Positions 14,422 through 42,037 are shown, counted from the stretch's first letter. The stretch is DNA of 56,053 nt from Candidatus Pyrohabitans sp. JdFR-17 (GCA_002011115.2 MTME02000085.1:1-56053); one strand, 5' to 3'. Notes: generated by a model not told the origin, from the letters alone. Numbers and translations are program-made.

Positions 14422-16956
14422 ATGCTCAGAAAAGCTGTACTTTTTGTACTACTCCTCTATTTCCTCCCTCAGGTTTTTGCCCTCTGCTCCAGGGACGTGT
14501 ACTACGCCGCTCCCGGTAAAAACTTGGATGTGATCACCCTCATCTCCTTCGATCTAGACGCGAAGGCAAAAGGGGTGCAGAGCAGCATAAGAGCTGCTCC
14601 GGGACAGCACATCACCGGTACCCTCGCCTGGAAATTCGGGGCTCTCGCTGAAGGAGAGGCGAGGGTCAACCTATTTGGAAACTGGAGCAAGGCGGAGATA
14701 GCAAGGCTGTACTCTGGCAGCGCAATACCAAACCAGAGCACAAGCGTGGAGTTCAGCTTCTTTGCCCCCTTACAACCCGGAAGCTATACCCTCACGGCAG
14801 TATTTGCCTTTGACACCAGTTTCGCAATAGATAGCGAGGCGAGCAATCTGTGCTCAGCTCAGCGGTGCTCTTCCCTTGGGCGGTGCGCTGTGGTCTATGC
14901 CCTCGCGAGCATAGAGGTACTCAACACCACCCCTGCGCTCTATGTTGAGATAACCTCTCCCCGCGCGGAGGAGATTTTCAGCATCGGTGAAGGGGTAACA
15001 ATCAATGGCACCGTCATGCCAGCCAACGCCAGCGTGGCTTTGTACATCAATGGTACCTTGGCGGGTGAAGCTCTGCCCTATGAGTGGAACACCTCGGGTT
15101 TGCCACCTGGAGAGTATCCCATACTGGTCAACGCATCCTTCGCAAACAGAAGCACGTCGGCGCTGGTGAAGGTTACCCTTGTAAATCACTCCCTTGCAAA
15201 GCCGGAGCATTATGAGATACTGCCCCCACGCCGACCTGAGCAGGTGTACGCCACGTCGCAGAGCGTAATTGCCGTTGCTGGAAATGAGGTGTACATCCTG
15301 AAGCATTCGGGTGATATGCTGGGCAGTGTGAAAACTGGTGCAAGGCCACTTATCTCTGCCTCTGGCGAGCACTTCGTGCTGGCTGAGAAGAACCTTATTT
15401 CGTTTTACAGGGGCACCGAGAGGGTTTGGAATACCAGCATTGACACGAATGCCGAGCTTGTTGCCGCCTCTCCCCGAGGAGTAGGCGTGGTGGCAGGGAA
15501 TAACCTATATCTCTTCAACACCGCGGGTGCGCTTCTCTGGACAAAGCAGCTTGAGTTTAAGGCTGCTATGCTTGAGATGTCCAACGATAGCATAGGTATA
15601 GTGGGGAATCGTACAGTGTATCTACTCTCATACGACGGCGTCGTTACCTGGAATAAGAGCTTTGAGAGGGAGGTAGTAGCCCTCGCCCTGGAAGGCGATA
15701 ACCTGTTCACCCTCCTGGGAGGGGAAATCCACGCTTTTGGTAAAGGAGAACCCCTCTGGAATTTAACGCTTCTGCAGAACGCTACGCTGCTCAGCGCTGC
15801 AATGGGCTACCTTGTTGCCGCTTCCCCTGAGGCTGTAGAGCTGTACGACGCACAGCGGGGTGAGCTGATATGGCGGTATTACCCTGAGAAGGGCGTGAGC
15901 TCTGCCACGCTTACCCCTGACGGGAGCAGAATATTCATACTATCTGGAGAGAAGATCCTGGGGATACCTCTTGCCGAAGAAAAGCGGCTGAGCTCGCTGC
16001 GTATAGTTGTAGTGGCTGTTGCTCTGGTAATTGCCGGGCTTTTGTTCTTTTTCCTCTTCAAAAAGCGCCTGGCAAAGCCAGCTACAGAAGCGCAAAAGTA
16101 TGAGAGGCGTGAGGAAACTCTGCCTCTGGAGGTAATGGTTAAAAGTTCAAAAGGCGGGCTACCCGTTGAGGGAGCTCTGGTAAAGCTCAACAAGCTTGAA
16201 GAGACCACCAATCGCGACGGTATAGCCACCTTCAGAATCAAACCTGGCACCCTAAGCCTGTCTGTGGAAAAGGAGGGCTTTAAACCAGCTTCCAAGAAAT
16301 TTTCGTTTAAGAAAAGTGGTGAGGGAGTGGAGGTAGAGCTTGAGCCAGCGCTCAGCCTTCCATGGGAAGAGGAGAAGCGCCTCGAAGAGCTGCGCCGTAG
16401 GTTGGACGAAGCGTATGAACGCGTTGCTGAGCACGACCCCTGCCTGCCGGATTACTTCAGAAGCATAGGCTATGCGATTATCGACGGCACCGAAGCTCTT
16501 TCCTTAGCTTCTGAGTTCAGGGAATCGCCTGCACATGTAAGCGCTCTTATAAGCGCCGCAGAAAGGGCAGTGCCCCTGCTCTGCGAAGCTATGCAGGACT
16601 GGAAGAATGTCGCCCTGTACCAGGCTTCAGCCAACCATAGCTCTGAAGGGTGCAGGGCACCAGAGTTTCCCTTCGCAACAGCGGTGGACTTCCTCCTTGG
16701 AAAGTTGACAAAGGAAGAGCTTGAGAAGGAGATTTTTGAAGTAGACAGAACAATTACGTCGATGATAGGTGAAGTATCCACATATCCTCTCGCTTCGCTG
16801 TGGCAGATTTCAAGTAAACTCTATGAGAAGGGGAAGAGGAGCACCTCGCCTGAGGCTAACGCTTCCTTCGCCCTATCCCACTACCTCCTCATGTGCATAA
16901 AGCACATGCTCACCAGTGAAGATGTGCTATCGAGGCTGAGGAGGAGTATTATCTAG
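14422..16956 (+). CDS. Transmembrane beta-propeller protein with Ig-like and cytoplasmic regulatory domains
   Basis: An 844-residue type I membrane protein. Parts in order are: signal peptide (1-20); a cysteine-containing N-terminal beta domain (to about 165); an Ig-like domain beginning LYVEITSPRAEEIFSIGE; and a PQQ-like beta-propeller (about 265-520) with repeated LYLF, VYLLSYDG and LYDAQRGELIW blades. A membrane helix follows at about 528-548. A cytoplasmic carboxypeptidase-regulatory-like/PEGA-type beta domain (about 570-650) and a helical C-terminal domain of about 190 residues complete it. Many N-x-S/T sites suggest glycosylation outside the cell. No enzyme motif is seen. It looks like a sensor or scaffold linking the outside to a cytoplasmic partner. 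The only strong GGAGG is unusually far (about 17 bases) from the ATG. Confidence 0.8.
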   Translation: MLRKAVLFVLLLYFLPQVFALCSRDVYYAAPGKNLDVITLISFDLDAKAKGVQSSIRAAPGQHITGTLAWKFGALAEGEARVNLFGNWSKAEIARLYSGSAIPNQSTSVEFSFFAPLQPGSYTLTAVFAFDTSFAIDSEASNLCSAQRCSSLGRCAVVYALASIEVLNTTPALYVEITSPRAEEIFSIGEGVTINGTVMPANASVALYINGTLAGEALPYEWNTSGLPPGEYPILVNASFANRSTSALVKVTLVNHSLAKPEHYEILPPRRPEQVYATSQSVIAVAGNEVYILKHSGDMLGSVKTGARPLISASGEHFVLAEKNLISFYRGTERVWNTSIDTNAELVAASPRGVGVVAGNNLYLFNTAGALLWTKQLEFKAAMLEMSNDSIGIVGNRTVYLLSYDGVVTWNKSFEREVVALALEGDNLFTLLGGEIHAFGKGEPLWNLTLLQNATLLSAAMGYLVAASPEAVELYDAQRGELIWRYYPEKGVSSATLTPDGSRIFILSGEKILGIPLAEEKRLSSLRIVVVAVALVIAGLLFFFLFKKRLAKPATEAQKYERREETLPLEVMVKSSKGGLPVEGALVKLNKLEETTNRDGIATFRIKPGTLSLSVEKEGFKPASKKFSFKKSGEGVEVELEPALSLPWEEEKRLEELRRRLDEAYERVAEHDPCLPDYFRSIGYAIIDGTEALSLASEFRESPAHVSALISAAERAVPLLCEAMQDWKNVALYQASANHSSEGCRAPEFPFATAVDFLLGKLTKEELEKEIFEVDRTITSMIGEVSTYPLASLWQISSKLYEKGKRSTSPEANASFALSHYLLMCIKHMLTSEDVLSRLRRSII

Positions 16957-16961
16957 AACCA

Positions 16962-18977
16962 TTAACTTTCGGCGCCAAGCACAACGTCGCCCTCTGCGAG
17001 AGCTTCTGAATCGCGAACCCAGCGAATCAGACCAAGGGTAACCCTGGCCACAAACCACAGGAAGAATAGGGTGAGAAGTGTAAGGTAAACCTTAAATGCT
17101 CTTTCCACAGTGCGCTTTCCTTTTGTGAGCTCCTCCAGCCTTGACTGAATAAGCTCTGCCTCCCCCCTCTCGCCAGCTTTTTCGAGCAAAGACTTTGCTT
17201 CCTCAACGCGGGAGATAGCTGAGTCGTAGTGGGAAATAACTGCCTCGTAGTGGAAAGGGTTGATGACAAAGGAAGCCTCTTTTATATTGAAGCTGAGTCT
17301 CCTAGCTGCGGCCACCTCCTTTTCGGAGCTTTTAAGCAGGACCGCCGCTTCAGTAAGAGCTTCATAGTACGCCCGCTCCATCTCCTCCTGCTTTGAGGCG
17401 TACTCCCTCACTTTCTCCTCATCTCCTAGGAGAGAATAGAGCGTCTTAAGCCTCCTGTAGTCGAGGGTAGCACTGCGGTAGTCCATTTTCTCCTTTCCAA
17501 CCCGCTTTTCCAGAGCCTCTGCTACCTCGCGTGCCTCTCTGCTCCACACATCCTCAAGCGCCTCAACTGCAGGTATAGCATGCTTTTTAAGACTTTTGTC
17601 CTCCAAGCTCTCACTGCCTATTTTCGCCCTGTTCAGACTGCTTTTTGCAAGTATGATGCGCTCAACGCGCTCGTCCAAGGGCTTGCCATTGAGGTCTGAG
17701 AAGATGTTAATGAATGAACTAACCCCACTGTACACCGACATGACCATCGCTATCTCCCTGAGCTCTGTTACACCCTTCGAAGCGGCTATCAGCTCGCGAA
17801 GATTCTGCACCGTTTCCTGATAGGGCAGCGACGGAAGCTTGGCTAAGGAGCGCTCCGCCTCCTCGAGGCCAGGGAAGTACACCGTAGCTTCAGCCACAAT
17901 CTCCGCGCTTCCTGCATACTTAGTGGCGAGCGCAAACACCCAGTTCTTTTTGCCCAGGCTCGCATCCGGAGGCAAGAGCAGAGTAAAGTTTATCGTTGCA
18001 TTGCCTCCCGGAGGGATGTAGTTAACCTGAGAGTAGGCTACCCATCCCTCTTCACCACTCACCTGAGATATGCTCAACCCTTCAATGGGGGTGTAGCCCC
18101 CTACCTCTGAGATTGTAATGCTCGCCGTAGCTGTGTCCCTGTCCACCTCAAAAGTTAAACTGCCGAAGTCTATCTTGGCGCTGGAAAGCGCCATCTCAGG
18201 CTTGGGAATGGTGTAGTTGGCCTGCTCAAGCGTCGCCACTTGAACATTGTAGTCCTTTACAATCCTGGGGGTAACCCAGTAGTCTCCTGGTCTGAGATAC
18301 CTCTCCGGCACCTGAATTTTTACCTTAATACTCTTAGACCCTCCAGCGGGCACGTCTCCCACACCTGTGGTATAACTTAGATTAACAGGACCCGTCTTTG
18401 AGAGGTAGAGCGAGACGTTGCTTGCGCCAGCGTAGCCAAAAGTCTCCCTCACAGTGAGAGTGCGCTCAAAGCTTTGCCCCGCTCTGAGCTTGCCCCACTC
18501 TGCAAGGTCCCAGGTAGCTTCGAGCGTCGCAGGCGGGTGGTCCACATTTATTGTGATGTAGAATTCGTGCAGCAATGGGTGGACTCCTACTTTGGTGATA
18601 TAGGTGTAGTTGCCCTTAACCTCAAGCTTTGCCCCATAGCTACCCTCAGCCACACTGGGAGGAGCGCGGAAGGAGATCATGAGATACGAGCTGTCCTCCG
18701 GCTCAACCCTGAGATAGTTCTTCTCCAGTACAACACTAATGCCCTTATCCGCTGCCTCACCTGAGAGCTTTGCCTCAAGGTTTGAGAGGATGGCAGCGCT
18801 TTCATTGTCCGCATTATAAAACTTCAGGGTTAAGTTTGTTTCAAAGTAGGTGACCTCATTCTTGGGCTTGTCGAAGTCGAAATCCACCTCGCTATAGCCA
18901 AAGCGCGCCTCCACGAGAGCGCTCACCGGCGTTGTGAGGAGCAGGAGCATAACAAGAATAGCACTCAGGCAACGCAT
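16962..18977 (-). CDS. Exported NEW3-like and coiled-coil protein with C-terminal membrane anchor
   Basis: About 671 residues. A signal peptide (LSAILVMLLLLTTPVSA) leads into roughly 350 residues of repeated beta-sandwich domains resembling NEW3/COG1470-type alpha-galactosidase-associated domains (for example VPAGGSKSIKVKIQVPERYL and IPPGGNATINFTLLLPPD). Then comes about 250 residues of charged coiled coil, and one membrane helix near the C-terminus (VYLTLLTLFFLWFVARVTLGL) with a short cytoplasmic tail. I prefer the ATG at 18977, just after the previous stop with GGTGGGGG upstream, over 19016, which would bury the signal peptide. The function is unknown. It shares its layout with the upstream exported coiled-coil protein. 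Confidence 0.8.
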   Translation of the reverse strand: MRCLSAILVMLLLLTTPVSALVEARFGYSEVDFDFDKPKNEVTYFETNLTLKFYNADNESAAILSNLEAKLSGEAADKGISVVLEKNYLRVEPEDSSYLMISFRAPPSVAEGSYGAKLEVKGNYTYITKVGVHPLLHEFYITINVDHPPATLEATWDLAEWGKLRAGQSFERTLTVRETFGYAGASNVSLYLSKTGPVNLSYTTGVGDVPAGGSKSIKVKIQVPERYLRPGDYWVTPRIVKDYNVQVATLEQANYTIPKPEMALSSAKIDFGSLTFEVDRDTATASITISEVGGYTPIEGLSISQVSGEEGWVAYSQVNYIPPGGNATINFTLLLPPDASLGKKNWVFALATKYAGSAEIVAEATVYFPGLEEAERSLAKLPSLPYQETVQNLRELIAASKGVTELREIAMVMSVYSGVSSFINIFSDLNGKPLDERVERIILAKSSLNRAKIGSESLEDKSLKKHAIPAVEALEDVWSREAREVAEALEKRVGKEKMDYRSATLDYRRLKTLYSLLGDEEKVREYASKQEEMERAYYEALTEAAVLLKSSEKEVAAARRLSFNIKEASFVINPFHYEAVISHYDSAISRVEEAKSLLEKAGERGEAELIQSRLEELTKGKRTVERAFKVYLTLLTLFFLWFVARVTLGLIRWVRDSEALAEGDVVLGAES

Positions 18978-18978
18978 G

Positions 18979-19929
18979 CTACGCCCCCACCAGTTCATTG
19001 CCAAGGTAGCAGTCATACGTATCCCTCTCCCAGCTTAGAATTCTGCTGTGGATGTACACCGAGAGTAAGGTCAGGGTTAGAGACACAATGGTAAAGAGCA
19101 CAAGAATCTTCTTCCTAGTTGTGGAGTAGATTTCATCAGCCTTAACATAACTCTCCTCCACCTGTATCAGCTTCTCCACCTCGCTGTGGAGCTGATAAAG
19201 CTCTTTAGCTTTAACGAGGCTTATTCTGGCTTCTCTAGCCAGAGAGTAGGCGTCCACAAATCCAGGGAAGTCGTCGCCTAGCTCCTGTGCGCGGGTGAGC
19301 AAATCCAAGGCCTCGCTCAGATAACCTTCCGCTTCCATTATGTCGGCGATATACTTCTCTTCAAGGCTTTGCTTCCTCACCTCTAGGCTTTTCGCCTGCA
19401 GAGCATCTGCTGCCTCGTAGCTGGCTATAGCGAGATCAAGGTTTGCAAGCTTAGCTCGTGTGCTCTCTGCCTTCTCCGCCCTGTCCTCGAAGATTAAACC
19501 CTGGGAGAGAAGGAAGCTCTCCCTTCCATGCTCAGCCGCCTGCACCGCATCCTGGGCGAGAATTCCCAAACCGGAGCTGGAGGAGCGCATCGCAGAGATA
19601 AACTTCTGGGACTCGATTGCCCTAGCTATGCCCTCCCTCTGCGATCCCATCTCCGCGCTTCCCACGAGGAGGTAGGCATTGTGCATAGCTTTGAGGAAGT
19701 CAAGGGATGAAGAGGCAAAGTTTACAAGCTCCCTGCTGCAAGCTGTGCGCTCCTGGGAATAAATCAAAAGCAGTACATCCTGCTTCACCTGGGCCAGCTC
19801 CGAATACGCTGCGAAAGCTGGAGAGGTGAATCCCCGAAGCTCCGCGAGTACTGCAGAGCACTCCTGAGCATGAGCCGCAGGGAGCAGCATAATCTCAAGG
19901 GATAGAAGAAGCACCAGCCTCGTGTTCAT
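18979..19929 (-). CDS. Exported coiled-coil protein with C-terminal membrane anchor
   Basis: A 316-residue protein: signal peptide (LLLSLEIMLLPAAHA), then about 245 residues of alpha-helix rich in alanine, leucine, glutamate and lysine, including EKYIADIMEAEGYLSEALDL and other tetratricopeptide- or coiled-coil-like stretches. One membrane helix (ILVLFTIVSLTLTLLSVYI) is followed by a tail of about 20 residues. No motif is recognised. It is divergent from the tubulin-like operon across 71 bases that contain TATA elements for both directions, so the two units are probably expressed together. Topology puts most of the protein outside the membrane. Confidence 0.78.
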   Translation of the reverse strand: MNTRLVLLLSLEIMLLPAAHAQECSAVLAELRGFTSPAFAAYSELAQVKQDVLLLIYSQERTACSRELVNFASSSLDFLKAMHNAYLLVGSAEMGSQREGIARAIESQKFISAMRSSSSGLGILAQDAVQAAEHGRESFLLSQGLIFEDRAEKAESTRAKLANLDLAIASYEAADALQAKSLEVRKQSLEEKYIADIMEAEGYLSEALDLLTRAQELGDDFPGFVDAYSLAREARISLVKAKELYQLHSEVEKLIQVEESYVKADEIYSTTRKKILVLFTIVSLTLTLLSVYIHSRILSWERDTYDCYLGNELVGA

Positions 19930-19934
19930 GCAAT

Positions 19935-19971
19935 AATGTTTTATATTTGACCTTAGAAAGTAAATATAAAA
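19935..19971. promoter_or_regulatory. Divergent TATA boxes between exported coiled-coil genes and tubulin-like operon
   Basis: TAAATATAAAA at 19961-19971 lies about 30-40 bases before the ATG at 20001, with AAGGTG as ribosome binding site. Reading the other way, CAAATATAAAAC (about 19937-19950) lies 10-20 bases before the minus-strand ATG at 19929. The two promoters are back to back in a 71-base gap. Confidence 0.5.
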
Positions 19972-20000
19972 GCGGAATTTAACTATGTTAAGGTGAAAAC

Positions 20001-21200
20001 ATGCCCTATGTGTTTATCGGTGTTGGACAGTGTGGCGGAGCAATAATAGATGCTGCTTTTTACGACGAAATGATGTTCAAGATAGCGGTGCCAATAGCAA
20101 TAAACTCCGCCACGCTGGACCTTCAAACTCTGAAAAACCTTAAGCGGGAGCACTGGATTGGCATGTCCCGCGATAGGGGATTCATACCGGGCACTTTGCA
20201 GGGGTTCGAGCACTTTGTGAGTGGAGGTTATGGTAAAAACCGCGCCAAAGCGGAAGAAGATGCGTTGCGCTTCAGGGATAACCTGAAGGAGGTGATTCTG
20301 GATAAGGTAGGGGTGGCTGAGGGGGAGGATTCTGGAATAGGAGTTCCCGTCGCCTTTGTTGCCTTTGCATTAGGTGGTGGCACAGGGAGCGGCGCTGGCC
20401 CAGTCGTGGCGAGCGTGCTTAAGGAGATGGGCATCCCGGTTATTGCCATAGTTGTTTTGCCAGCTACCCACGAAGGCGGGCTGACTGCGAAAAATGCTGT
20501 GGAGAGCTTAAACCAGCTGATAGAACACGTAGACTCCGTGATTCTGGTGGACAACCAGAAGCTAGCTTATGCCGAAAGCGCCGAGAGTCTGTTCCAGAGG
20601 TACAATGAATACGTGGCGAGAAGCATTCGCGACATTCTGATAGGCACAGTGATAGAGCGTGTGGACCCATCACAGTACGAGGGCTACGCTCCGGTGATAG
20701 ACCTCAAGGACATGATAGCAGCGACCAGCTTCTCCTTCGGGAAGCGTACCCGCCCCGGCTTCGCTGCCTTGGGCAGAGCTTCTGAACGCACTCGCAATTT
20801 TCTGCACTACATCTTCCCCTTCGGTGGGTATAAGGAGATAGATGTGATCTCTCTGCTCTATAGGAGCTTCATGAAGCTAACCCTAGCGGACGTAAGACCT
20901 GAGCACGCGGAGAAGAACCTCGTGCTGCTGCGCATCCCCCCGGTCTATCTAACAAAGCGAGGAAGGATAAACACCAGCATGGCAAAGCAGGTGATGGAGG
21001 AGCATTCCCGCCTTGGAGAGACCCACTTCGGTGTAGCCCTGACAAAGCGAAACCTAGCGACGGCAACAGTGCTTCTTACATACCGTCCCAATCAGATATC
21101 CCGGCTTAAAACGCTGAGCCAGCTCGCAAGCCAGTACAAGGATATCTCCCTTCGAGTGCTTGAGGAATACGAGAAGGACTTCCTAGAGAGCGAGGCGTAA
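20001..21200 (+). CDS. Tubulin/FtsZ superfamily GTPase 1
   Basis: A 399-residue protein with the complete GTPase core of the FtsZ/tubulin fold. The T1 loop GVGQCGG is at 7-13, T3-like AINSATLD at 33-40, and T4 tubulin signature GGGTGSG at 125-131. A T5-like VLPATHEGG is near 152-160. The T7 synergy segment VIDLKDM has acidic residues D234 and D237, which in polymers complete the active site of the neighbouring subunit. It should therefore bind GTP and polymerise. Outside these loops it diverges from ordinary FtsZ and CetZ. It lacks the short conserved C-terminal peptide that recruits FtsZ partners. It is first of three tightly spaced genes (2-base gap to the next). Class within the superfamily is uncertain. 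Confidence 0.87.
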   Translation: MPYVFIGVGQCGGAIIDAAFYDEMMFKIAVPIAINSATLDLQTLKNLKREHWIGMSRDRGFIPGTLQGFEHFVSGGYGKNRAKAEEDALRFRDNLKEVILDKVGVAEGEDSGIGVPVAFVAFALGGGTGSGAGPVVASVLKEMGIPVIAIVVLPATHEGGLTAKNAVESLNQLIEHVDSVILVDNQKLAYAESAESLFQRYNEYVARSIRDILIGTVIERVDPSQYEGYAPVIDLKDMIAATSFSFGKRTRPGFAALGRASERTRNFLHYIFPFGGYKEIDVISLLYRSFMKLTLADVRPEHAEKNLVLLRIPPVYLTKRGRINTSMAKQVMEEHSRLGETHFGVALTKRNLATATVLLTYRPNQISRLKTLSQLASQYKDISLRVLEEYEKDFLESEA

Positions 21201-21202
21201 AT

Positions 21203-22570
21203 ATGAACGAATACGTGATAACCGCACTTGTCGTTCTAGCCACACTGGGTGCAGGCTTGTTCCTGCTTTTAACCTTTGGGATTAGCTTTGTCTCCTATAT
21301 CGCCGTGGGGGTAATCCTGAGCGTGCTTTTCGCAAGCTTAATATACACCTGGTGGAAGAGCAAGACCGACAGGACTGTTGTGCTTCTGAAGATTGAAATT
21401 CTGAACAAGATTAAGAGCAGCCTGGACAGGCTTGAAGAAAACATCAAGGAAGCCTCCGAGTTTATTGATATTGAGCCATTTATGAGGGATCTGAAGAGGA
21501 TAAGGAAGGAGCTTATATCAAAAGGATTCTTTACGAAGGACTTTGAAGTAAATGAGAAGAAGATTGAAAAGGTAACCTTAACAGCGATTGAGCTGGAGAG
21601 TAGAAAGGTTGAGCAGCAACTGCGAAGCCTGGAGTCGCTGGCAGCGGCGAGCTACATTGAAGCTGTGACGAAGCGCTTGGGAGAGCTGCTCAGTGCGGCG
21701 CGCACGCTGGTAGAGAGTGGATTCTCTGTGAGTGAGGAGTATGAAGAGCTTCGACAAATAGTGAGTATGCCTTCCGCCAGCCTGGCTGAGCTTCTTGAGA
21801 AACGCAAGCGTGGCGAGGAGGAATATCTTCGCATCGTAGAGAAGTGTATCAGCGAAGCAGAGTTTCTGCTTGATACCGCAGAAAACATAGCCGACGTGGC
21901 ACACCTCAGAAAGGAGCTGGAGATAGTTAAAGAGCACAAGCTCAGTGTGGAGGTCGTACACAGACTTCAGCGCGTGAGAAGCGAGGCTTCAAGCTACCTC
22001 ACAAAACCATTCCTTCAGACAAAGAAAGAGATTGTGAGCTATCTTGACAAAGTTCTGAGCTTCTGCAGTGGATTTGAAAGGGAAGAGCACGCGATTCGTG
22101 TCTTGAAGGATAAGGCGCTTGGCTATGCCGACCCCGGCTACTTGGCAGAGTTCGCCGCAATTAAAGAAGAAGCCAAGAGGCTAACCCTCGAGCTGGCTCG
22201 TGTACTTGCAAGGGAGGTCGTAGCACTGGAAGAGGAGCTGAAAGAGCTGGGCATGAGAAAGATCAGGAGAAAGGGGGTTGAGAGGCATGTCTCAAAGCTC
22301 GACCCCAGGAAGGAGTTTGCAGAATTTGCAAAGGAAGCAATAGAGGTGCTCAGAACCCTTGCTGGCGAGTACAACACAAGGTATAGGACTGTGAAGATAG
22401 CAAAGAACTACCCCGCGATAGAGAAGATTATAGCACAGAAGCTGGCGGAGAAGGGTGAAGTTTCTGCAGAAGAGCTTAAGGTGCGCTATGCCCCGGAGTT
22501 CCTAAAGCGCTACAGCGAGGCACATCCAGAGGTTAAGTTTGAAAAGAATGTATTAAAGGTAAAAGGTTGA
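21203..22570 (+). CDS. Membrane-anchored long coiled-coil protein between the two tubulin-like GTPases
   Basis: A 455-residue protein with two adjacent membrane helices at about 4-26 and 27-49, so both ends face the same side. About 350 residues of charged, leucine-heptad coiled coil follow (for example RLEENIKEASEFIDIEP and ELARVLAREVVALEEELKEL). The end is a compact domain of about 60 residues, YPAIEKIIAQKLAEKG...VSAEELK...FEKNVLKV, which looks like a small winged helix. The layout recalls EzrA, a membrane anchor with a cytoplasmic helical rod that binds FtsZ, but this is analogy, not homology. It sits 2 bases after GTPase 1 and 4 bases before GTPase 2. Confidence 0.78.
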   Translation: MNEYVITALVVLATLGAGLFLLLTFGISFVSYIAVGVILSVLFASLIYTWWKSKTDRTVVLLKIEILNKIKSSLDRLEENIKEASEFIDIEPFMRDLKRIRKELISKGFFTKDFEVNEKKIEKVTLTAIELESRKVEQQLRSLESLAAASYIEAVTKRLGELLSAARTLVESGFSVSEEYEELRQIVSMPSASLAELLEKRKRGEEEYLRIVEKCISEAEFLLDTAENIADVAHLRKELEIVKEHKLSVEVVHRLQRVRSEASSYLTKPFLQTKKEIVSYLDKVLSFCSGFEREEHAIRVLKDKALGYADPGYLAEFAAIKEEAKRLTLELARVLAREVVALEEELKELGMRKIRRKGVERHVSKLDPRKEFAEFAKEAIEVLRTLAGEYNTRYRTVKIAKNYPAIEKIIAQKLAEKGEVSAEELKVRYAPEFLKRYSEAHPEVKFEKNVLKVKG

Positions 22571-22574
22571 AAGC

Positions 22575-23873
22575 ATGCACGCTACGAGATGGGGGATAAT
22601 AGCGAGTGGACAAGGAGCGAACCGCATCGCATTTCTCTACTATGCAAGGTATAAAAACCCCAGTATCGCAGACAGGGTGCTTCTCCTTAACACCACCCCG
22701 GCGGATGTGAAGCCTGAGTCGCCGCTTGAGCAGATCTTCGCCAGCAACCCGGAGTTTAGGGAGGAGTACGAGAAGATAAAGCGTGAGCGCGTTTGCATCT
22801 TTGGCAGGGCGCCGAGTGGCGCGGGCAACAACTGGGTACTTGGCGAAAGAGAGGCGATGGCTGATTATGACAACATTCGCAGGTACATCGCAAATTTAAA
22901 GCTTCGCAGCAGTGATGTGCTTCTGGGCATTGCGACTCTGGGGGGAGGCACCGGCAATGGTTCGCTTCCTTATATCATACACAGGGTCAGGAAGAACCCG
23001 GGAGCAGGGATGGAAAGGATAAATAACTTCCTGGCTCTCGGAATACTCCCATACGACTTTGAGGCTCCCCAGAGGCATTTCAACACCATTTGCGGTCTCT
23101 CGAGGCTATTGCGCTATAACGGGGAGCAGAACGCAGCGCTTGTAATTCTGGTGGACAACTCCCAGGTGGAGCGTGTTCTCGGCTTAAGGCGGGGGCAAAG
23201 AGAGGAGCGCTACCAGAGGATAAACCAGGAGATTATAAAAACGATACACATGCTCATCGCACCCAGCAGTTACGCTTCTCGAGCTACGATTGATATCGCA
23301 GACTATTACCAGCTTCCCAGCAACCTTGGTATGGTTCACTTTACCCCTTGCTTGAGCCTGGGAAATGATCCGGATGTGTTGAGCCTGGACGCCATACTGG
23401 AGAGCGCATCAACCAATGCGATGGTCCCCTTAGATAAGGGCACAGCTACAATGGCGTACATAGTGGTCATCGCCCCCGAAGAGAAGGTAGCTAACGGGGA
23501 GATCACCCAGGAGGACTTGGAGGACATCTCGAGGGAGTGGGCAGCCAAGCATCTAGCGGGAAGCCAAGGGGGAATTCTGAGGTACACCAGCCTAATCGCC
23601 TCCCCCGAGAGCAAGAGCGTGGACGCCATGATTCTCCTGGGTGGCTTCAGCCTGCGCAGAATAATGGAGAAGAGCCTGGAGAAGTACTATGATTTTAAAG
23701 ATTCCCTCAGCGATGGCAGCGATGAGAGGTCCCGCATAGAGCTTGAGAGAGTGGAGAAGCTGGAAAAGCAGCTAAAGGAGTACATCGCCCTGACAGAAGA
23801 GAAGATAGCGAGGTTAGAGAATAAAAGTAGGAAAGCGAAAGCAGAGCTGAGAAAGTGGGGCTTATCCTCCTAG
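22575..23873 (+). CDS. Tubulin/FtsZ superfamily GTPase 2
   Basis: A 432-residue second, very different member of the superfamily. Present are a reduced T1 loop SGQGANR (11-17), the T4 signature GGGTGNG (123-129), an IVLVDNSQ-like strand near 190-196, and the T7 segment ATIDIADYY with D240 and D243. The C-terminal 45 residues form a charged coiled coil (RIELERVEKLEKQLKEYI and onward), absent from GTPase 1. The T1 loop lacks the usual GxGGxG, so nucleotide binding may differ, though the phosphate loop T4 is intact. It is coupled to the anchor gene. The pair may form a heteropolymer or act as antagonists. Confidence 0.85.
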   Translation: MHATRWGIIASGQGANRIAFLYYARYKNPSIADRVLLLNTTPADVKPESPLEQIFASNPEFREEYEKIKRERVCIFGRAPSGAGNNWVLGEREAMADYDNIRRYIANLKLRSSDVLLGIATLGGGTGNGSLPYIIHRVRKNPGAGMERINNFLALGILPYDFEAPQRHFNTICGLSRLLRYNGEQNAALVILVDNSQVERVLGLRRGQREERYQRINQEIIKTIHMLIAPSSYASRATIDIADYYQLPSNLGMVHFTPCLSLGNDPDVLSLDAILESASTNAMVPLDKGTATMAYIVVIAPEEKVANGEITQEDLEDISREWAAKHLAGSQGGILRYTSLIASPESKSVDAMILLGGFSLRRIMEKSLEKYYDFKDSLSDGSDERSRIELERVEKLEKQLKEYIALTEEKIARLENKSRKAKAELRKWGLSS

Positions 23874-25810: not shown

Positions 25811-26428
25811 GTGAGAATGCTAGAGATTCTTCCTGTTGGCGAAGTTCAGTATTTCTGGCTCGAATATCTTAGATATGAACTGGGGGAGTATTTTGGGGAT
25901 GTGATAATTTCGCCGCCAATTGAAGTTCCCCTCAGTTTTAATGAAAGAGGCCAAGTACTGGCGGACCACCTTCTTGATTACCTGAATAACTACCCGGCGT
26001 GTGCAGAGAAGGTGCTGGCTGTAATCAACAGGGATATAACTGTCAGCGGTGTGGATTACATCTTTGGGCTTGCGGCGCTGGGCGGGAGGTGTGCTGTCAT
26101 CTCCCCGGTGCGTCTAAGGGAAGTGTACTACAACAGAAAGTGCGACTATGAGCTTTTTCTTGAGAGGCTCCTGAAAGAGGCGCTGCACGAACTGGGGCAT
26201 ACGCTCGGTTTGACCCACTGCAGCAATGAGAGCTGCAATATGAAATTCTCCAGCACAGTTTATGAGATTGATAGAAAATCCATCCTTTTCTGTGATGACT
26301 GTCTTAATACGGTCTTTGGATATACAAAATCCCAAGATACCAAGGTTTATGCTGCCAATGGTGAGGGGAGTAAAAATTTGATGAGAACCATACTGAATAG
26401 ACTGAAAAAGATTCAAAAGAGAAAATAA
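25811..26428 (+). CDS. amzA: Archaemetzincin metalloprotease
   Basis: A 205-residue zinc protease that matches the family signature exactly. HELGHTLGLTHC lies at 126-137, followed by C142, M144, C161 and C164, the HExxHxxGx2HC-x4-CxM-x17-CxxC pattern. The first motif holds the catalytic zinc and the four cysteines a structural zinc. No signal peptide is seen, so it acts in the cytoplasm. The C-terminal 35 residues are basic and extend beyond the usual end of the family. GTG at 25811 or ATG at 25817 could be the start. Physiological substrates of archaemetzincins are unknown. Confidence 0.93.
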   Translation: MRMLEILPVGEVQYFWLEYLRYELGEYFGDVIISPPIEVPLSFNERGQVLADHLLDYLNNYPACAEKVLAVINRDITVSGVDYIFGLAALGGRCAVISPVRLREVYYNRKCDYELFLERLLKEALHELGHTLGLTHCSNESCNMKFSSTVYEIDRKSILFCDDCLNTVFGYTKSQDTKVYAANGEGSKNLMRTILNRLKKIQKRK

Positions 26429-32215: not shown

Positions 32216-32665
32216 TCACTCCAGTATCGCTGATCCACTTACGAAAGAAGATGACCATCTAACACTCTTGCTCCTCAAGGTTATATAGTATCTCACCTCA
32301 TCCCCCTTTTGGGGACTGTATCCATCCTCTGTGATCAGCACCACCTTGTAGTTCCCAGATCCTTTATACTGAACCAAGCCCCAGTAGGTTGAATGAGTAA
32401 CATTCTTGTTTTCTTTTGGTATCACATAGCCCCTGAAGGCTATGAAGGGAGGATAATCAACTCCCGGCACCTTATAATCTGTTAAATCCACTGGCGAAAT
32501 GTTTACTTTAACCGAATCTGGAACTATTTTGTTGTTTTCGATTCTCACTTCAAACGCTATACCGTTTATCTCTTTTGGCTTAATGTCGATACAGCCACTC
32601 AGCCACAGACTAGAAAATAATATCAATGATAAAAGCAAGAATCTTCGAGATTGTAATAAATCCAA
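32216..32665 (-). CDS. Small lipoprotein
   Basis: A 149-residue predicted lipoprotein. A hydrophobic leader ends in the lipobox LSGC at about residue 25, then comes an all-beta domain of about 120 residues. It starts with TTG, but a very strong AGGAGGTG lies 7 bases upstream, inside the 3' end of the cytochrome gene, which it overlaps by 56 bases. That arrangement indicates translational coupling to the cytochrome. No family is recognised. It may be an accessory or docking factor for the cytochromes on the outside of the membrane. Confidence 0.75.
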   Translation of the reverse strand: MDLLQSRRFLLLSLILFSSLWLSGCIDIKPKEINGIAFEVRIENNKIVPDSVKVNISPVDLTDYKVPGVDYPPFIAFRGYVIPKENKNVTHSTYWGLVQYKGSGNYKVVLITEDGYSPQKGDEVRYYITLRSKSVRWSSSFVSGSAILE

Positions 32666-33287
32666 CTTTTTTCACCTCCTGCTTTGGCTGTTCCCTACTA
32701 ATTGTCTTGTTAATTATCTCCTCATTGAGATCTAACTTTTCAAGATCTTCTTTTGTAAATCTGGAAGCGAAGGCTGACCCATGGCACATCTTACACACAT
32801 TCCCAAGTATATTCGCATGTATATAGTGGATGTCATATTTGTGGCAGCTTTTGCACTCCATGGTTTTTGGCTTGCTAACTATAAAATCTGTTACATTCTG
32901 TATTTCGTGACACTTTACGCAGGGGGTCTCTTTATGTATCTTAAGATGGTATGCCTGATAAGTCACATTTTTTGTGCCTGCATGACACAACCTGCAGTGA
33001 TTTGAATCGTGAAGCTCCCTTACATCATTAATTCTCACACTATATCCATTGGCCACGTCGCTCTGATGACACCTGCAGCCCTCCTGAAGGAATTTTTCCT
33101 CGTACTCTTTGTCTGGCATCAGGAAGGCATGGCAGTATATGCACTTGCTTCCGCCATGTCCCATCCCCGCAAAATTTCTTACAAGAGGGTCTAACCCTTC
33201 TATCTTCGTATATTCTTCTTGAGAATATACCTGGGCAACGGTTACCATAGCCACCACTAATGCTGCAAATACCAGAGCAGCCTTCAT
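32610..33287 (-). CDS. Small multiheme cytochrome c with five CXXCH and one CXCH
   Basis: A 225-residue exported cytochrome. Signal peptide: residues 1-22. Heme motifs are CIYCH 49-53, CRLCH 98-102, CVKCH 123-127, CKSCH 145-149 and CKMCH 165-169. A sixth site at 71-74 reads CRCH, one residue short of the normal motif. Extra histidines (44, 114, 117, 154, 157) can act as axial ligands. The end (FITISKILAFIIDIIF) is hydrophobic and may be a membrane anchor. It overlaps the lipoprotein gene by 56 bases. Likely role is electron transfer across or along the cell envelope. Confidence 0.87.
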   Translation of the reverse strand: MKAALVFAALVVAMVTVAQVYSQEEYTKIEGLDPLVRNFAGMGHGGSKCIYCHAFLMPDKEYEEKFLQEGCRCHQSDVANGYSVRINDVRELHDSNHCRLCHAGTKNVTYQAYHLKIHKETPCVKCHEIQNVTDFIVSKPKTMECKSCHKYDIHYIHANILGNVCKMCHGSAFASRFTKEDLEKLDLNEEIINKTISREQPKQEVKKVGFITISKILAFIIDIIF

Positions 33288-37267: not shown

Positions 37268-40200
37268 TTACTGGATACCGTGTATGAAGGCATCCATTCC
37301 ATCGTTTGTGCTGCCTCCGTAGTGGCATGTTGCACACTTATCGTCAGTGTAAGGTGCGGTGAGTGTAGAGTGGTTTCCTGTACCCGGTGTGATAACAGGC
37401 GGCTTCTTGCTGTAAAATCTCGTGAAGTAATAGTTGACCGTTAAGGTGTAGTCAGAGTCACTTGTAATATGACAGGAGCCACACCATGTTGTGGTGCCTG
37501 ACCCTATTGTGGCGTTGATTCTCGCCGGGTAGTCTCCGCTCCTGATACCCGCTAACCGAACCGCATAACCGATGGGCAGATTCTCACTGTGGTCTGAGGT
37601 GTGGCAGAATATGCAGGCAGTGTAGTTGTCGCTCCAGTAGGTTGTGCTTCCGTCAGCGGAGATGCCATTGCCGTGGCCTGAGAAGGGCACTTTGACCACA
37701 TTGGTGTAGCCATAGCTGCTCATTAAAGCGTCGAGGGTGCTGTTTACGTGGCAGGTGTAGCACTTTGCATAGCTTTTCTGCTGCTTGGCTATCTTTGCAG
37801 GCACGTATGCCCCACTTTCGGTAAGGTAGGTGACATTGTGCACCTTGTTGGTTGTTCCAACGTGGCAGAGCTTACAGCCCATTCCGTTAACGTGAGTTCT
37901 TCCGCCGGTTATGGGTATGTGGCACGTTCTGCACTCACTATCAAAGCTTGTGTAGCTGGGTATTGTAAGGCTCTGGGTGTGGAGGTTATTGACACTATTA
38001 TGACATTTGAAGCATGGTGCATAGTATCGCCTCGACCTTGCGCTGTGGTCTGGCTGCACCGTCCTGTTGGTATTGGTGAAGAACTGGTTGTAAGCACTGC
38101 TGGTGGTACCACTCTTGTGCTGCTGATGGCAGTAGCCACAGTAGCTCTCATCTTTCTTGGCTTTAAGGTCATCTCTCTTCATCACGTAGTGCGAGGCATA
38201 ACTCTTGTTGTTGTCCACGCTTGTGTAGTGAGAAGGCATCTCATAGTCGAGATTGCTAACCTGATTCTCTCCAAGACTGTGGCAATTGTAGCACTCAGCG
38301 TTGGTCACCTTGACATCCTCACCGTTCTTGTAGTGCTCCTTGACCAGCGGCGCACCAAAGGCTCCGGTAGTGTGGCAGTCTTCGCAGAGCTTGGGTGTGT
38401 TGTAGCCTACAGGATGATCCCCTGAAGGTGGTTCCAGACCATCCTTAGTGTGGCATGCCCAGCACTTCTTATTCTCCGCAGGCAGAGTGGTTACTACGTT
38501 GCTGTTGAGATTCCTGTGAGCCGCATTCGGATCCTCTGTGGCATTGAAGTCAACATCCCACGCCAGTTCGCCCAGATTGTGACAGCTAATGCAGTTGTTG
38601 CCTCCCGAAACACCTTCAGCAACCCTGTGTACAAACTCACGAGTTGTGGTGGAGGTACCTATCAGCCCACCGTGGCATTTGCGGCACTCGCTGTCACTGT
38701 AGCTTGTGTTTGAGATATACCCCCTGCTCAAGTGGTCCCTGTAAGCCGTACCGTCGGTGGCGTTGCTCAAATCCCAGCCGGAGAGATTTACAACCTTAGG
38801 AGAGAAGGCTGAGCCGTTATAGTTCGCTGCTTGGGAGAAGTGACAGCCTGCGCACCAGCTGGTTGAGCTCAGATTTGAGGTGTTCCTAGTAAGCGAATCC
38901 TCTATTAGTGAGACATTGCCCAGAGCATTTGCCCTGTGTCTGCTATCGCCATGGCAGAAAGCACATGCACTCTGCTCGTCGCCTGGCGTCCAGTAGGTCT
39001 GCGATGTCTTATTCCACTTCTGTCCAGCTATTGGGTCATCGCTATGATTTAATGGCGGAATCTGGGAGGCATTCGCAAACTTTCCTCCAAGATTACTACG
39101 ATGGCAGGTGGTGCAGCTAGCGGGTGATGTGGTACCCCATACCTCATATTTACCCGAGCTGTTGAGATATTTAATTCCGTGGATATCCCTTACATTTACG
39201 GTGTTTATATCCCCTGTGTGGCAGTTAACACAATAAACAGTTTCATTCTTTGCTCTGTTTCCTGCGGAATTATGGAGTTGCTTATTGGTGTGGCAGGTCA
39301 TACAGAGTGTGTTGTTTGTGGGTGTGAGAACGGGCTTAGTCAAGCTTTCATCGTGCATTCTGCCAGAACCGTGGCAATCTGCGCACCCAGGGCCACCCAC
39401 GTTGTCGGTGTGGTTAAGCATGTTGTTGTGCGTTGCATCCTGCATTACCAGGTCGAAGCTACTGTTCTGCTGATGGCAGTATACGCAGTTCGCTACACCG
39501 GAGTTGTTGAGCACCGGCGAGATCTTACCATAGTGGTAGGCGCTAAGATTTCCACCATACACACCGTCGCCGTCAGCATCAAAGCTACCGTTGTCAGGGT
39601 CATTAACATTGATTATCCTCAGCTCGGATATGTTTGGATTCTGGTGGCAGTTGAGGCAGCTCTTCAAAGCCGTGTTCGCTCCTGTGGTTGCTACAAGCTC
39701 ACTGCCATTTAGGTAGTGCTCACTCACCATAGGAGCACCATAAGCACCAGCCTTAACTCCTGTGCTGAGGTGACAGTCGGTACATACAAAGGGCGTCTTC
39801 TGCTTGTCGGGATGACCGTCAGGCGGCTGACCGTTACTGCTGTGACAGGCGTAGCAGGGCTCATTCACTTCATAACCTGTGGTGGAGGTGGTGTTTATGT
39901 TGCCGTGCACACCATTCTGTAGAGCCGTGAAGTTGATGTGCTTCGGAGCGGAGCCGCCTAAATCGTGGCAACTCCTGCAGTCAGGGCCTGCTGTTTTGTG
40001 TTTACCATCAATGTTTGCTCCGGGTTGATTCATATCCACACTGTGTACCGTTAGAGCTTTAACACCATACGCATTTGAGCTGCTGTGACAATCTGCACAG
40101 TTAAGAGGAGTAACCCCATCCTGCTGATAGAAGTCCGAAGAACTGTGACATTTCACACACTCGCTGGGTGTCATATTATCGTTTCCATATCCCATGCCGA

Positions 40201-42037
40201 AGGGTATGAGCTTTGTATCGTTGGTGGAGTGGATTGAGGCGTTGGGGTAATAGGTGGTGCCGTTGTATACTATGCTGACATTGTTGTGACAGGAAAGGCA
40301 AGTGAGATTTCCACCACCGGTAACGTTGGCGGCATGTACCTGAGTTACATTCCTGGCTCCTGTGGCGGAGCCATCGTGACATCCTGCCTGGTTACATGAA
40401 GGCGTGGAAGCGGTTATGGTATTATCGTGGGGTGAGCTAACCCCGTGGCAGTTCTGGCAGGTCTTGTTGGCGTTGCCATGGTAAATTGCATTGTTGCTAT
40501 CCCAGCTTGGCACAGGCTGGGCAGCTGCTGACTTTCCACCAACACCTGTAGAGGTGTGGCAGTCCGAGCAGGCAGGGATACGAATATCATGACCGCTAGC
40601 CGAGCCAGTAGCGGTAACGTGGCAGTCCACACAACTTTTGGTTACTGTCTGTCCATGCTGTATATTGCCAACATTCCTCGGCGCTGGAGCACCTGCACCG
40701 TGACAGGAGTTGTCGCCACTTCCGCAGGTGACGCCATAACCAGAACCGCCCACATCCTGAATGGTTACATTGTGACCGTGACCGTGGCAGTAGCGGCAGT
40801 CAACACCTGCGTGGGCATAGGTGGTGTTAACCGTCGGGCTTATTTTAAGTCCTGTTGTATGACACTCGTAGCAGTCCCTGACTTCTGGTACTCCGTTGGC
40901 TGCGCTCAAAGTCGTGCCTCCAACTTTGTGGCAGGTAGCGCAGTTTGTGGCAGGGTCAATGGTTCTGTGATTGAAGTTCGCCGCTGTTACAGTGTTGTGG
41001 CAGTCTGTACAGGCAGGAGAGTCTGTACGGGTGAAATTCGCACCAATTATATTTTTTGCCATCCAGCTCTGAGAAATTCCGTGACAACCCCTATTATAGT
41101 TTCCATATCTGCTTGGTTCACTGCTATTGTATGCTTTATCTGGAGTACCACCCTTAACTATGGAGTAGTCTGGTTGCACACCATAAGCACATCCTGCAAA
41201 AGTAGGTGGTCCTCTGTTGTCTGAAGGACCATACTTGAGAGACTCCGTTTCAAAGATACCATCCCCATCATTATCCTTCCACTCACTGCCACCCGGGGTT
41301 GCAATATATCCCAAACCTTCAATAACACCTGTGTTAGACTCACCCATTATAATGTTGTTTGGATCTCCCCAATATGTTACACCATCGTCCGCACCATAGG
41401 GAAATCTGAAAGGTCCCAAATCTGTGCCAACTGCATCCCCTGCATTCTGGTCAGAAGTTCCATTTAAAATTGTAGGACTTATACCGGTACCACCAGTATT
41501 ACTCCCTGTGATAGGGCTAATCAAATAATCCCAATCTAATGGATAGTCATATTCATCATTCAGTGAATACCAGAGGGCAGAAGCATTGTTTGTATCAAAA
41601 CCCCTGTATATCTCCATTATTGTTCCTTTGTTTTTTGGTGGTGCATCTGGACCTGCTTTCCAGAGAGGCCAATTACCATCGCCGTGCTGCATGTGCACCC
41701 ATCTTGGGAAAGTTGAAGCAGGGACTCTACCTGAACCGGGATGAGGTACGCCTGAGCCTGCAAATGGTCCCTGATTGTTGTAAACCTTATAATCTTGGAT
41801 ACGGTCATACACGCCATCTGGACCGGGACCATTTTTACCACTCATAAGCCCACCAAAAGTCGCATTAATCATATGACATGAACCTGTGGTGCCATCCCCC
41901 TGGGAGCAGCTTAACTGAGGGTTCTCCTCAATCTCAAGGTTGGTGGGTGCCATGATATCATACTTACCAGAGGCGAAGGTAAGGCTTATTGCGATCATTC
42001 CGATGAACAGAATGAGCAGAATGTCACTCTTCTCCAT
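37268..42037 (-). CDS. Giant multiheme cytochrome c (34 CXXCH motifs)
   Basis: A 1589-residue exported protein. The N-terminal hydrophobic segment (LLILFIGMIAISLTFASG) is a signal peptide. I count 34 canonical CXXCH motifs from about residue 350 to the end. Three wider forms are also present: C-x9-CH near residue 44, C-x6-CH (CGSGDNSCH) and C-x4-CH (CNQAGCH). The CX4CH with CXXCH mix recalls the Geobacter-type domain described as TIGR01904. The first 330 residues are heme-poor, rich in G/N/D, and probably a binding or docking domain. The C-terminal part holds near-duplicate heme modules (VCTDCHLSTG... against LCEDCHTTG...). There is no C-terminal anchor. It should conduct electrons over a long distance outside the cell. 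Confidence 0.92.
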   Translation of the reverse strand: MEKSDILLILFIGMIAISLTFASGKYDIMAPTNLEIEENPQLSCSQGDGTTGSCHMINATFGGLMSGKNGPGPDGVYDRIQDYKVYNNQGPFAGSGVPHPGSGRVPASTFPRWVHMQHGDGNWPLWKAGPDAPPKNKGTIMEIYRGFDTNNASALWYSLNDEYDYPLDWDYLISPITGSNTGGTGISPTILNGTSDQNAGDAVGTDLGPFRFPYGADDGVTYWGDPNNIIMGESNTGVIEGLGYIATPGGSEWKDNDGDGIFETESLKYGPSDNRGPPTFAGCAYGVQPDYSIVKGGTPDKAYNSSEPSRYGNYNRGCHGISQSWMAKNIIGANFTRTDSPACTDCHNTVTAANFNHRTIDPATNCATCHKVGGTTLSAANGVPEVRDCYECHTTGLKISPTVNTTYAHAGVDCRYCHGHGHNVTIQDVGGSGYGVTCGSGDNSCHGAGAPAPRNVGNIQHGQTVTKSCVDCHVTATGSASGHDIRIPACSDCHTSTGVGGKSAAAQPVPSWDSNNAIYHGNANKTCQNCHGVSSPHDNTITASTPSCNQAGCHDGSATGARNVTQVHAANVTGGGNLTCLSCHNNVSIVYNGTTYYPNASIHSTNDTKLIPFGMGYGNDNMTPSECVKCHSSSDFYQQDGVTPLNCADCHSSSNAYGVKALTVHSVDMNQPGANIDGKHKTAGPDCRSCHDLGGSAPKHINFTALQNGVHGNINTTSTTGYEVNEPCYACHSSNGQPPDGHPDKQKTPFVCTDCHLSTGVKAGAYGAPMVSEHYLNGSELVATTGANTALKSCLNCHQNPNISELRIINVNDPDNGSFDADGDGVYGGNLSAYHYGKISPVLNNSGVANCVYCHQQNSSFDLVMQDATHNNMLNHTDNVGGPGCADCHGSGRMHDESLTKPVLTPTNNTLCMTCHTNKQLHNSAGNRAKNETVYCVNCHTGDINTVNVRDIHGIKYLNSSGKYEVWGTTSPASCTTCHRSNLGGKFANASQIPPLNHSDDPIAGQKWNKTSQTYWTPGDEQSACAFCHGDSRHRANALGNVSLIEDSLTRNTSNLSSTSWCAGCHFSQAANYNGSAFSPKVVNLSGWDLSNATDGTAYRDHLSRGYISNTSYSDSECRKCHGGLIGTSTTTREFVHRVAEGVSGGNNCISCHNLGELAWDVDFNATEDPNAAHRNLNSNVVTTLPAENKKCWACHTKDGLEPPSGDHPVGYNTPKLCEDCHTTGAFGAPLVKEHYKNGEDVKVTNAECYNCHSLGENQVSNLDYEMPSHYTSVDNNKSYASHYVMKRDDLKAKKDESYCGYCHQQHKSGTTSSAYNQFFTNTNRTVQPDHSARSRRYYAPCFKCHNSVNNLHTQSLTIPSYTSFDSECRTCHIPITGGRTHVNGMGCKLCHVGTTNKVHNVTYLTESGAYVPAKIAKQQKSYAKCYTCHVNSTLDALMSSYGYTNVVKVPFSGHGNGISADGSTTYWSDNYTACIFCHTSDHSENLPIGYAVRLAGIRSGDYPARINATIGSGTTTWCGSCHITSDSDYTLTVNYYFTRFYSKKPPVITPGTGNHSTLTAPYTDDKCATCHYGGSTNDGMDAFIHGIQ

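Follow-up and report, generated by a model that had tools for sequence, protein, structure and literature searches.

The locus described here raises the question of what role is played by two divergent GTPases of the tubulin/FtsZ superfamily that are encoded on either side of a membrane protein. It lies in a stretch of 56,053 nucleotides, hereafter the window, of the heat-loving archaeon Candidatus Pyrohabitans sp. JdFR-17 (GCA_002011115.2 MTME02000085.1:1-56053). The window corresponds to contig C85 in a Hydrothermarchaeota metagenome-assembled genome (MAG) of 1.62 Mb, whose closest named relatives also belong to this group and include Ca. Pyrohabitans jungbluthii JdFR-16. A preliminary description of the window had located three open reading frames (ORFs) at positions 20001-21200, 21203-22570 and 22575-23873, and these coordinates were confirmed; all three lie on the plus strand, separated by 2 and 4 bases. 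They encode GTPase 1 (GT1, 399 aa), a membrane rod or anchor (455 aa) and GTPase 2 (GT2, 432 aa), respectively. Together with three further partners, named F2, F3 and F5p, the gene block has the appearance of a cytoskeleton not described so far that is connected to the cell exterior, and we lean towards the view that it constitutes an archaeal trans-envelope tubulin system of six core components.

The preliminary description had considered the gene order as fixed, and this was conserved from Hydrothermarchaeota to haloarchaea in samples of 23 genomes of the Hydrothermarchaeota phylum and 294 haloarchaeal genomes. In the first sample, GT1 orthologs were identified in 14 genomes and the rod in 14/23, always between GT1 and GT2 and with order and strand kept; one of the 14 contigs stops inside GT1, and a fifteenth genome presented GT2 at a contig edge. 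The cassette was absent from genus g2, family f6 and the class-level outgroups of this sample. Among the haloarchaea, GT1, the rod and GT2 were each detected in 27/294 genomes. These were the same 27 genomes in the three cases, no genome of the 294 had only one or two of the genes, and the listed coordinates placed GT1, rod and GT2 on one strand in 27/27. The positive genomes are not independent owing to their shared ancestry; the all-or-none inheritance is strong evidence that the three genes form one functional unit. In addition, the search of genome contigs with the GT2 alignment yielded 53 loci, which span Hydrothermarchaeota, Altiarchaeota, a MAG labelled as Micrarchaeota, ANME-2/Methanosarcinales and haloarchaea. 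The dN/dS values obtained against genus members ranged overall from 0.01 to 0.17 (GT1, 0.01-0.03; GT2, 0.04-0.10; rod, 0.08-0.17), by which measure each of the three genes is constrained by purifying selection. Such low values indicate that these are real genes and that GT1 evolves very slowly.

Although the three-gene cassette was confirmed, the earlier account had overlooked three additional conserved partners and a second, CetZ-type cluster of the genome. The haloarchaeal loci present a co-directional operon in which GT1, a transmembrane (TM) protein, the rod, GT2, F5p, F3 and F2 follow one another. Orthologs of all six window genes were found in the same order and on one strand in 15/18 haloarchaeal loci; of the other three, one was due to a start-call artefact and two had no detectable F5p match. 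In this operon the F5p ortholog stands immediately after GT2 (E 1e-10 to 1e-21) and the F2 orthologs also occupy a fixed place (E 1e-24 to 1e-39). Since the F2 profile gave 19 matches among 3667 ORFs, once per locus, these cannot be attributed to compositional chance. Orthologs of F3 were found in the haloarchaeal operon, in ANME-2 and in Altiarchaeota.

The Hydrothermarchaeota order upstream of GT1 comprises F3 and F2, both divergent, and then F5p, which is convergent. F3 (18979-19929, minus strand) is separated from GT1 by 71 bp, a position kept in 10 Hydrothermarchaeota loci, and is an exported single-pass protein with an N-terminal signal-like segment, a helical ectodomain, a C-terminal TM and a short cytosolic tail. 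F2 (16962-19016, minus strand) is likewise exported and single-pass, with a weak NEW3-like/Ig region, a helical stalk, a C-terminal TM and a short tail; its NEW3-like match was below the cut-off, and the haloarchaeal F2 proteins gave HYDIN/CARDB-like Ig matches. Both proteins are homologous in their stalk-TM-tail half (hhalign 98%, E 1e-14), and their short cytosolic tails bear a G-[DNE]-x-hydrophobic motif, the G676 of F2 being invariant across groups. F5p (14422-16956, plus strand) is a membrane protein with one TM and with Pfam matches to PQQ-like, Ig and CarboxypepD_reg/PEGA-like domains; according to its predicted topology, the PQQ-like and Ig regions should be outside and the CarboxypepD_reg/PEGA-like and helical part inside the cell. 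The 71-bp divergent intergenic region (19930-20000) contains a TATA-like AT-rich box in each direction and a GGTG ribosome-binding-like site preceding GT1, and from this reading we infer that it would act as a promoter region.

Both GTPases are assigned to the FtsZ/tubulin superfamily, whose attributes are a GTP-binding domain with the GGGTG loop, the T7 acids and the C-terminal domain. The tubulin signature, GGGTGSG in GT1 and GGGTGNG in GT2, and the T7 acidic pairs (D234/D237 and D240/D243, respectively) were present as formerly noted. GT1 matched the Pfam Tubulin family (PF00091) with an E of 5e-25, and GT2 with an E of 1e-6, a score under the Pfam curated cut-off. In the GT2 orthologs, GGGTGNG, N195, N217, D240 and D243 were invariant in 37/37 alignment rows. 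In those of GT1, D184, N185 and N202 were invariant, and D234 and D237 were retained in 25/27 and 26/27 rows, respectively. On these residues, GT1 and GT2 look GTPase-competent outside ANME-2. The AlphaFold2 model of GT2 (pLDDT 89, pTM 0.90) showed a complete tubulin fold with the C-terminal domain and a C-terminal helix, predicted at residues 390-427, where a tail had been proposed. OdinTubulin was the best PDB match of this model, followed by CetZ, tubulin and FtsZ. For GT1, the first match of a PDB sequence search was Haloferax CetZ1 (4b46), and a tubulin fold is to be expected from its sequence.

The rod did not match any Pfam or NCBIfam family. Its AlphaFold2 model (pLDDT 88 overall, 62-76 in the membrane hairpin) begins with two TM helices, both N-terminal, in agreement with the two membrane helices noted before; they are followed by cytosolic helical hairpins up to residue 417 and by a small helix/strand end, which in the model is compatible with a winged helix. 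What had been read as a long coiled coil is therefore better described as a rod of helical hairpins. A resemblance to EzrA had also been pointed out. It is sustained by the topology, as both proteins have an N-terminal membrane segment and a cytosolic helical rod, although the rod has two TM helices. It is not sustained by the fold, since no solved structure in PDB, EzrA included, matched the model at E <= 0.001, nor by the sequence, since there was no Pfam match; homology with EzrA was consequently rejected.

The genome encodes seven proteins of the tubulin family: FtsZ1, which adjoins Spt5/ribosomal genes, FtsZ2, three GTPases of another cluster (locus B), GT1 and GT2. As SepF is also present (contig C16), the cassette is additional to a complete FtsZ/SepF set. 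Locus B (C36, L008:2260-6457) is the CetZ-type cluster and has the organization GTPase-GTPase-exported single-pass TM protein-GTPase; two of its three GTPases matched CetZ_C (3e-68 and 8e-26), and it is conserved across Hydrothermarchaeota, including genomes without the GT1-rod-GT2 cassette. Homology to F2 and F3 was not supported for F6, which belongs to locus B, nor for the mid-protein of the haloarchaea.

The position of GT1 and GT2 in the superfamily was studied with two trees, one of 90 rows and a careful version of 60 rows, from which the supports given here are taken. Human tubulin behaved as a long branch and was dropped, and the reference sequences of this protein and of Escherichia coli FtsZ were entered by hand. 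GT1 formed one clade and GT2 another, each with 100/100 support. The FtsZ clade (100/99) excluded both, and CetZ was also apart in the two trees, so that GT1 and GT2 fall outside FtsZ1, FtsZ2 and CetZ. An ordinary FtsZ1/FtsZ2 pair was ruled out by the tree and by the NCBIfam ftsZ scores (85.7 bits for GT1 and 31.7 bits for GT2 against a cut-off of 295.2), and a CetZ pair by the separate clades and by the lack of any CetZ_C (PF21011) match in GT1 and GT2. As for the branching order among GT1, GT2, FtsZ and CetZ, the AU test gave p values of 0.11-0.47 and rejected no arrangement, including the sisterhood of GT1 and CetZ (p 0.11).

From these data a mechanism can be proposed for the trans-envelope system. 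GT1 and GT2 would be GTP-binding filament proteins of tubulin fold, and the helical rod with its two TM segments would recruit them to the cytoplasmic side of the membrane, where their filaments would build. F2, F3 and F5p would reach into the surface layer with their ectodomains and into the cytoplasm with a tail or domain, and so join the filament to the cell exterior. GTP-driven assembly could in this way arrange or displace components of the envelope, in the service of shape or surface architecture, while division would stay with FtsZ1, FtsZ2 and SepF of the same genome. The role of the system is probably envelope or shape organisation and not division. A more specific version, in which GT1 and GT2 co-polymerise on the rod and, via the tails of F2, F3 and F5p, draw surface proteins along or set their position, is put forward tentatively; such an envelope-spanning two-tubulin cytoskeleton would be an archaeal counterpart, in cells lacking a peptidoglycan wall, of the trans-envelope divisome or elongasome.

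Several observations weigh against the trans-envelope system. Its distribution is patchy, with 9% of the sampled haloarchaea, about one in eleven, being positive. GT2 lies outside the GT1 cluster in ANME-2, where F2-F3 are divergent from a GT1 relative and GT2 is elsewhere, and in Altiarchaeota, which have relatives of GT1, F3 and F5p and carry GT2 at a separate locus. Hydrolysis of GTP is not a universal property of GT1, because one ANME-2 relative (L089:17284-18318) has GGITGPG in place of the canonical loop and its T7 acids are gone, which suggests a non-hydrolysing subunit. Finally, conservation of the C-terminal tails of F2 and F3 is only moderately above average (the F2 C-terminal window ranks 70 of 649); for this reason their possible role as docking peptides is hypothetical, and as a standout binding motif the tails obtained only moderate support. 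In favour of the system, GT1 is still linked to F3/F2 in ANME-2 and to F3 in Altiarchaeota even though GT2 has moved. In genomes G044 and G199, GT1 is accompanied by an F2-like protein, and the Micrarchaeota-labelled MAG contains a partial version of the system. GT1 and the exported proteins may represent the older core.

Other divergent relatives were observed. A second ANME-2 relative of GT1 (L186:4520-5626), like that of L089, had no GGGTG motif. The GT1 of the Micrarchaeota-labelled MAG (L079:14818-16440) has a C-terminal extension, and the F5p profile gave a match to this protein (E 3e-5), which resembles a PEGA-type domain fused to tubulin. Near the head of the haloarchaeal operon, ahead of GT1, lies another tubulin-family member, the third and a very divergent one (L107:1797-3584 and equivalents), of about 540-600 aa, with a PF00091 match at E 4e-13 and in which no GGGTG motif was found. 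A further tubulin-like protein with GGGTGVG is present in Altiarchaeota (L188:11066-12295 and L212:6325-7566; PF00091 E 2e-9 for L212), where its cluster also includes F3, F5p and an exported protein with a MopE motif. In the archaeal family f47 (L208:8926-10311 and L209:8257-9642), a protein of roughly 900 aa is directly followed by a GT2-like one, which has about 461 aa and bears GGGTGCG.

Among the other explanations, the one that best withstands these data is an obligate GT1-GT2 heterodimer or mixed protofilament on the rod, similar to alpha/beta-tubulin or BtubA/B, which we regard as possible but doubtful. It is favoured by the strict 1:1 co-inheritance and adjacency of GT1 and GT2 in 27/27 haloarchaea, by the AU test, which did not reject their sisterhood (p 0.39), and by the retention of both active-site halves. 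However, each of the two proteins keeps both halves, so homopolymers are equally possible, and two separate homopolymers fit the co-inheritance as well. The heteropolymer or paired cytomotive filament suggested in the preliminary description stands as one possibility beside these. Moreover, the sequences of GT1 and GT2 are strongly different, and their genes are at different loci in ANME-2 and Altiarchaeota. A second division apparatus, replacing or assisting FtsZ/SepF in cytokinesis under some conditions, seems unlikely. Tubulin-fold GTPases with a membrane tether do recall FtsZ-SepF or FtsZ-EzrA, but this genome already contains FtsZ1, FtsZ2 and SepF, the close relatives of genus g2 and family f6 keep FtsZ in the absence of the cassette, and the latter is missing from 91% of the sampled haloarchaea. 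Least probable of all is a mobile-element or conflict module, that is, a transferable tubulin-using toolkit serving for instance surface competition or plasmid partition: tubulin-type GTPases occur in plasmids and phages and the distribution is patchy, but the scanned neighbours included no recognisable integrase or partition genes, GT1 evolves too slowly for a module of this kind to be likely, and the GT1 and GT2 trees group lineage-wise.

With regard to known systems, CetZ, which comprises tubulin-like proteins of archaea involved in cell shape, also belongs to the archaeal tubulin superfamily and is additional to FtsZ, as are GT1 and GT2, but it has its own clade and the CetZ_C domain. FtsZ1/FtsZ2 with SepF similarly combine tubulin-fold GTPases and a membrane tether; they differ from the cassette in belonging to separate clades, whereas the latter has no SepF, a two-TM helical rod as tether and extra exported partners. 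FtsZl1 and FtsZl2 are FtsZ-like proteins discovered computationally and associated with predicted membrane systems (Makarova and Koonin, 2010, PMC2875224). FtsZl1 is long, with a coiled coil, a helical C-terminal domain and a T6-H7 part that is not confident, and its neighbours are vWA and P-loop GTPase genes. A relation to these families had been left open in the preliminary description, but the FtsZl1 features tested were not matched: GT1 and GT2 have a tubulin-like length (399 and 432 aa) and keep T7, no vWA match was found among the neighbours scanned, and a match to Pfam Tubulin_2 (12.5 bits) stayed under the cut-off; on these features an FtsZl1 identity was rejected. Santana-Molina et al. 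(2023, PMC9871819) report Halo.Tub and CetZ-like groups, which are likewise divergent tubulins and occur in Halobacterota and Altiarchaeota; their copies stand in quasi-tandem and have coiled-coil proteins as neighbours. The same authors report CetZ in Hydrothermarchaeota. Compared by description, Halo.Tub may partly be the same proteins as the cassette tubulins, but the passages compared here do not include gene-order conservation, the membrane rod, the exported partners or the Hydrothermarchaeota cassette. A CetZ survey (2023, PMC9856176) lists non-canonical tubulin-superfamily proteins. No description of the GT1-rod-GT2 cassette was found in the open-access literature searched, a scope outside which bioRxiv and most subscription papers fall. 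Archaeal tubulin-family paralogs are numerous and their partners mostly unknown; here two of them have fixed membrane and surface partners, a set kept together across very distant archaea. The system could be used to approach the question of how the S-layer is reached by a cytoskeleton, and tests can be made directly, since the whole operon is present in cultured haloarchaea (e.g., Halorubrum, Natrinema and Halobaculum).

Elsewhere in the window, an exported multihaem cytochrome of 1589 aa (37268-42037; MtrC/F-like, with cytochrome c7 repeats) and a smaller cytochrome c7 protein near it (32610-33287) make up a possible extracellular electron transfer cluster. An Archaemetzincin-type protease (25811-26428; Peptidase_M54, E 1e-23) has an exported beta-helix (NosD) protein on either side, and CWB2 domains are also present in one of the two.

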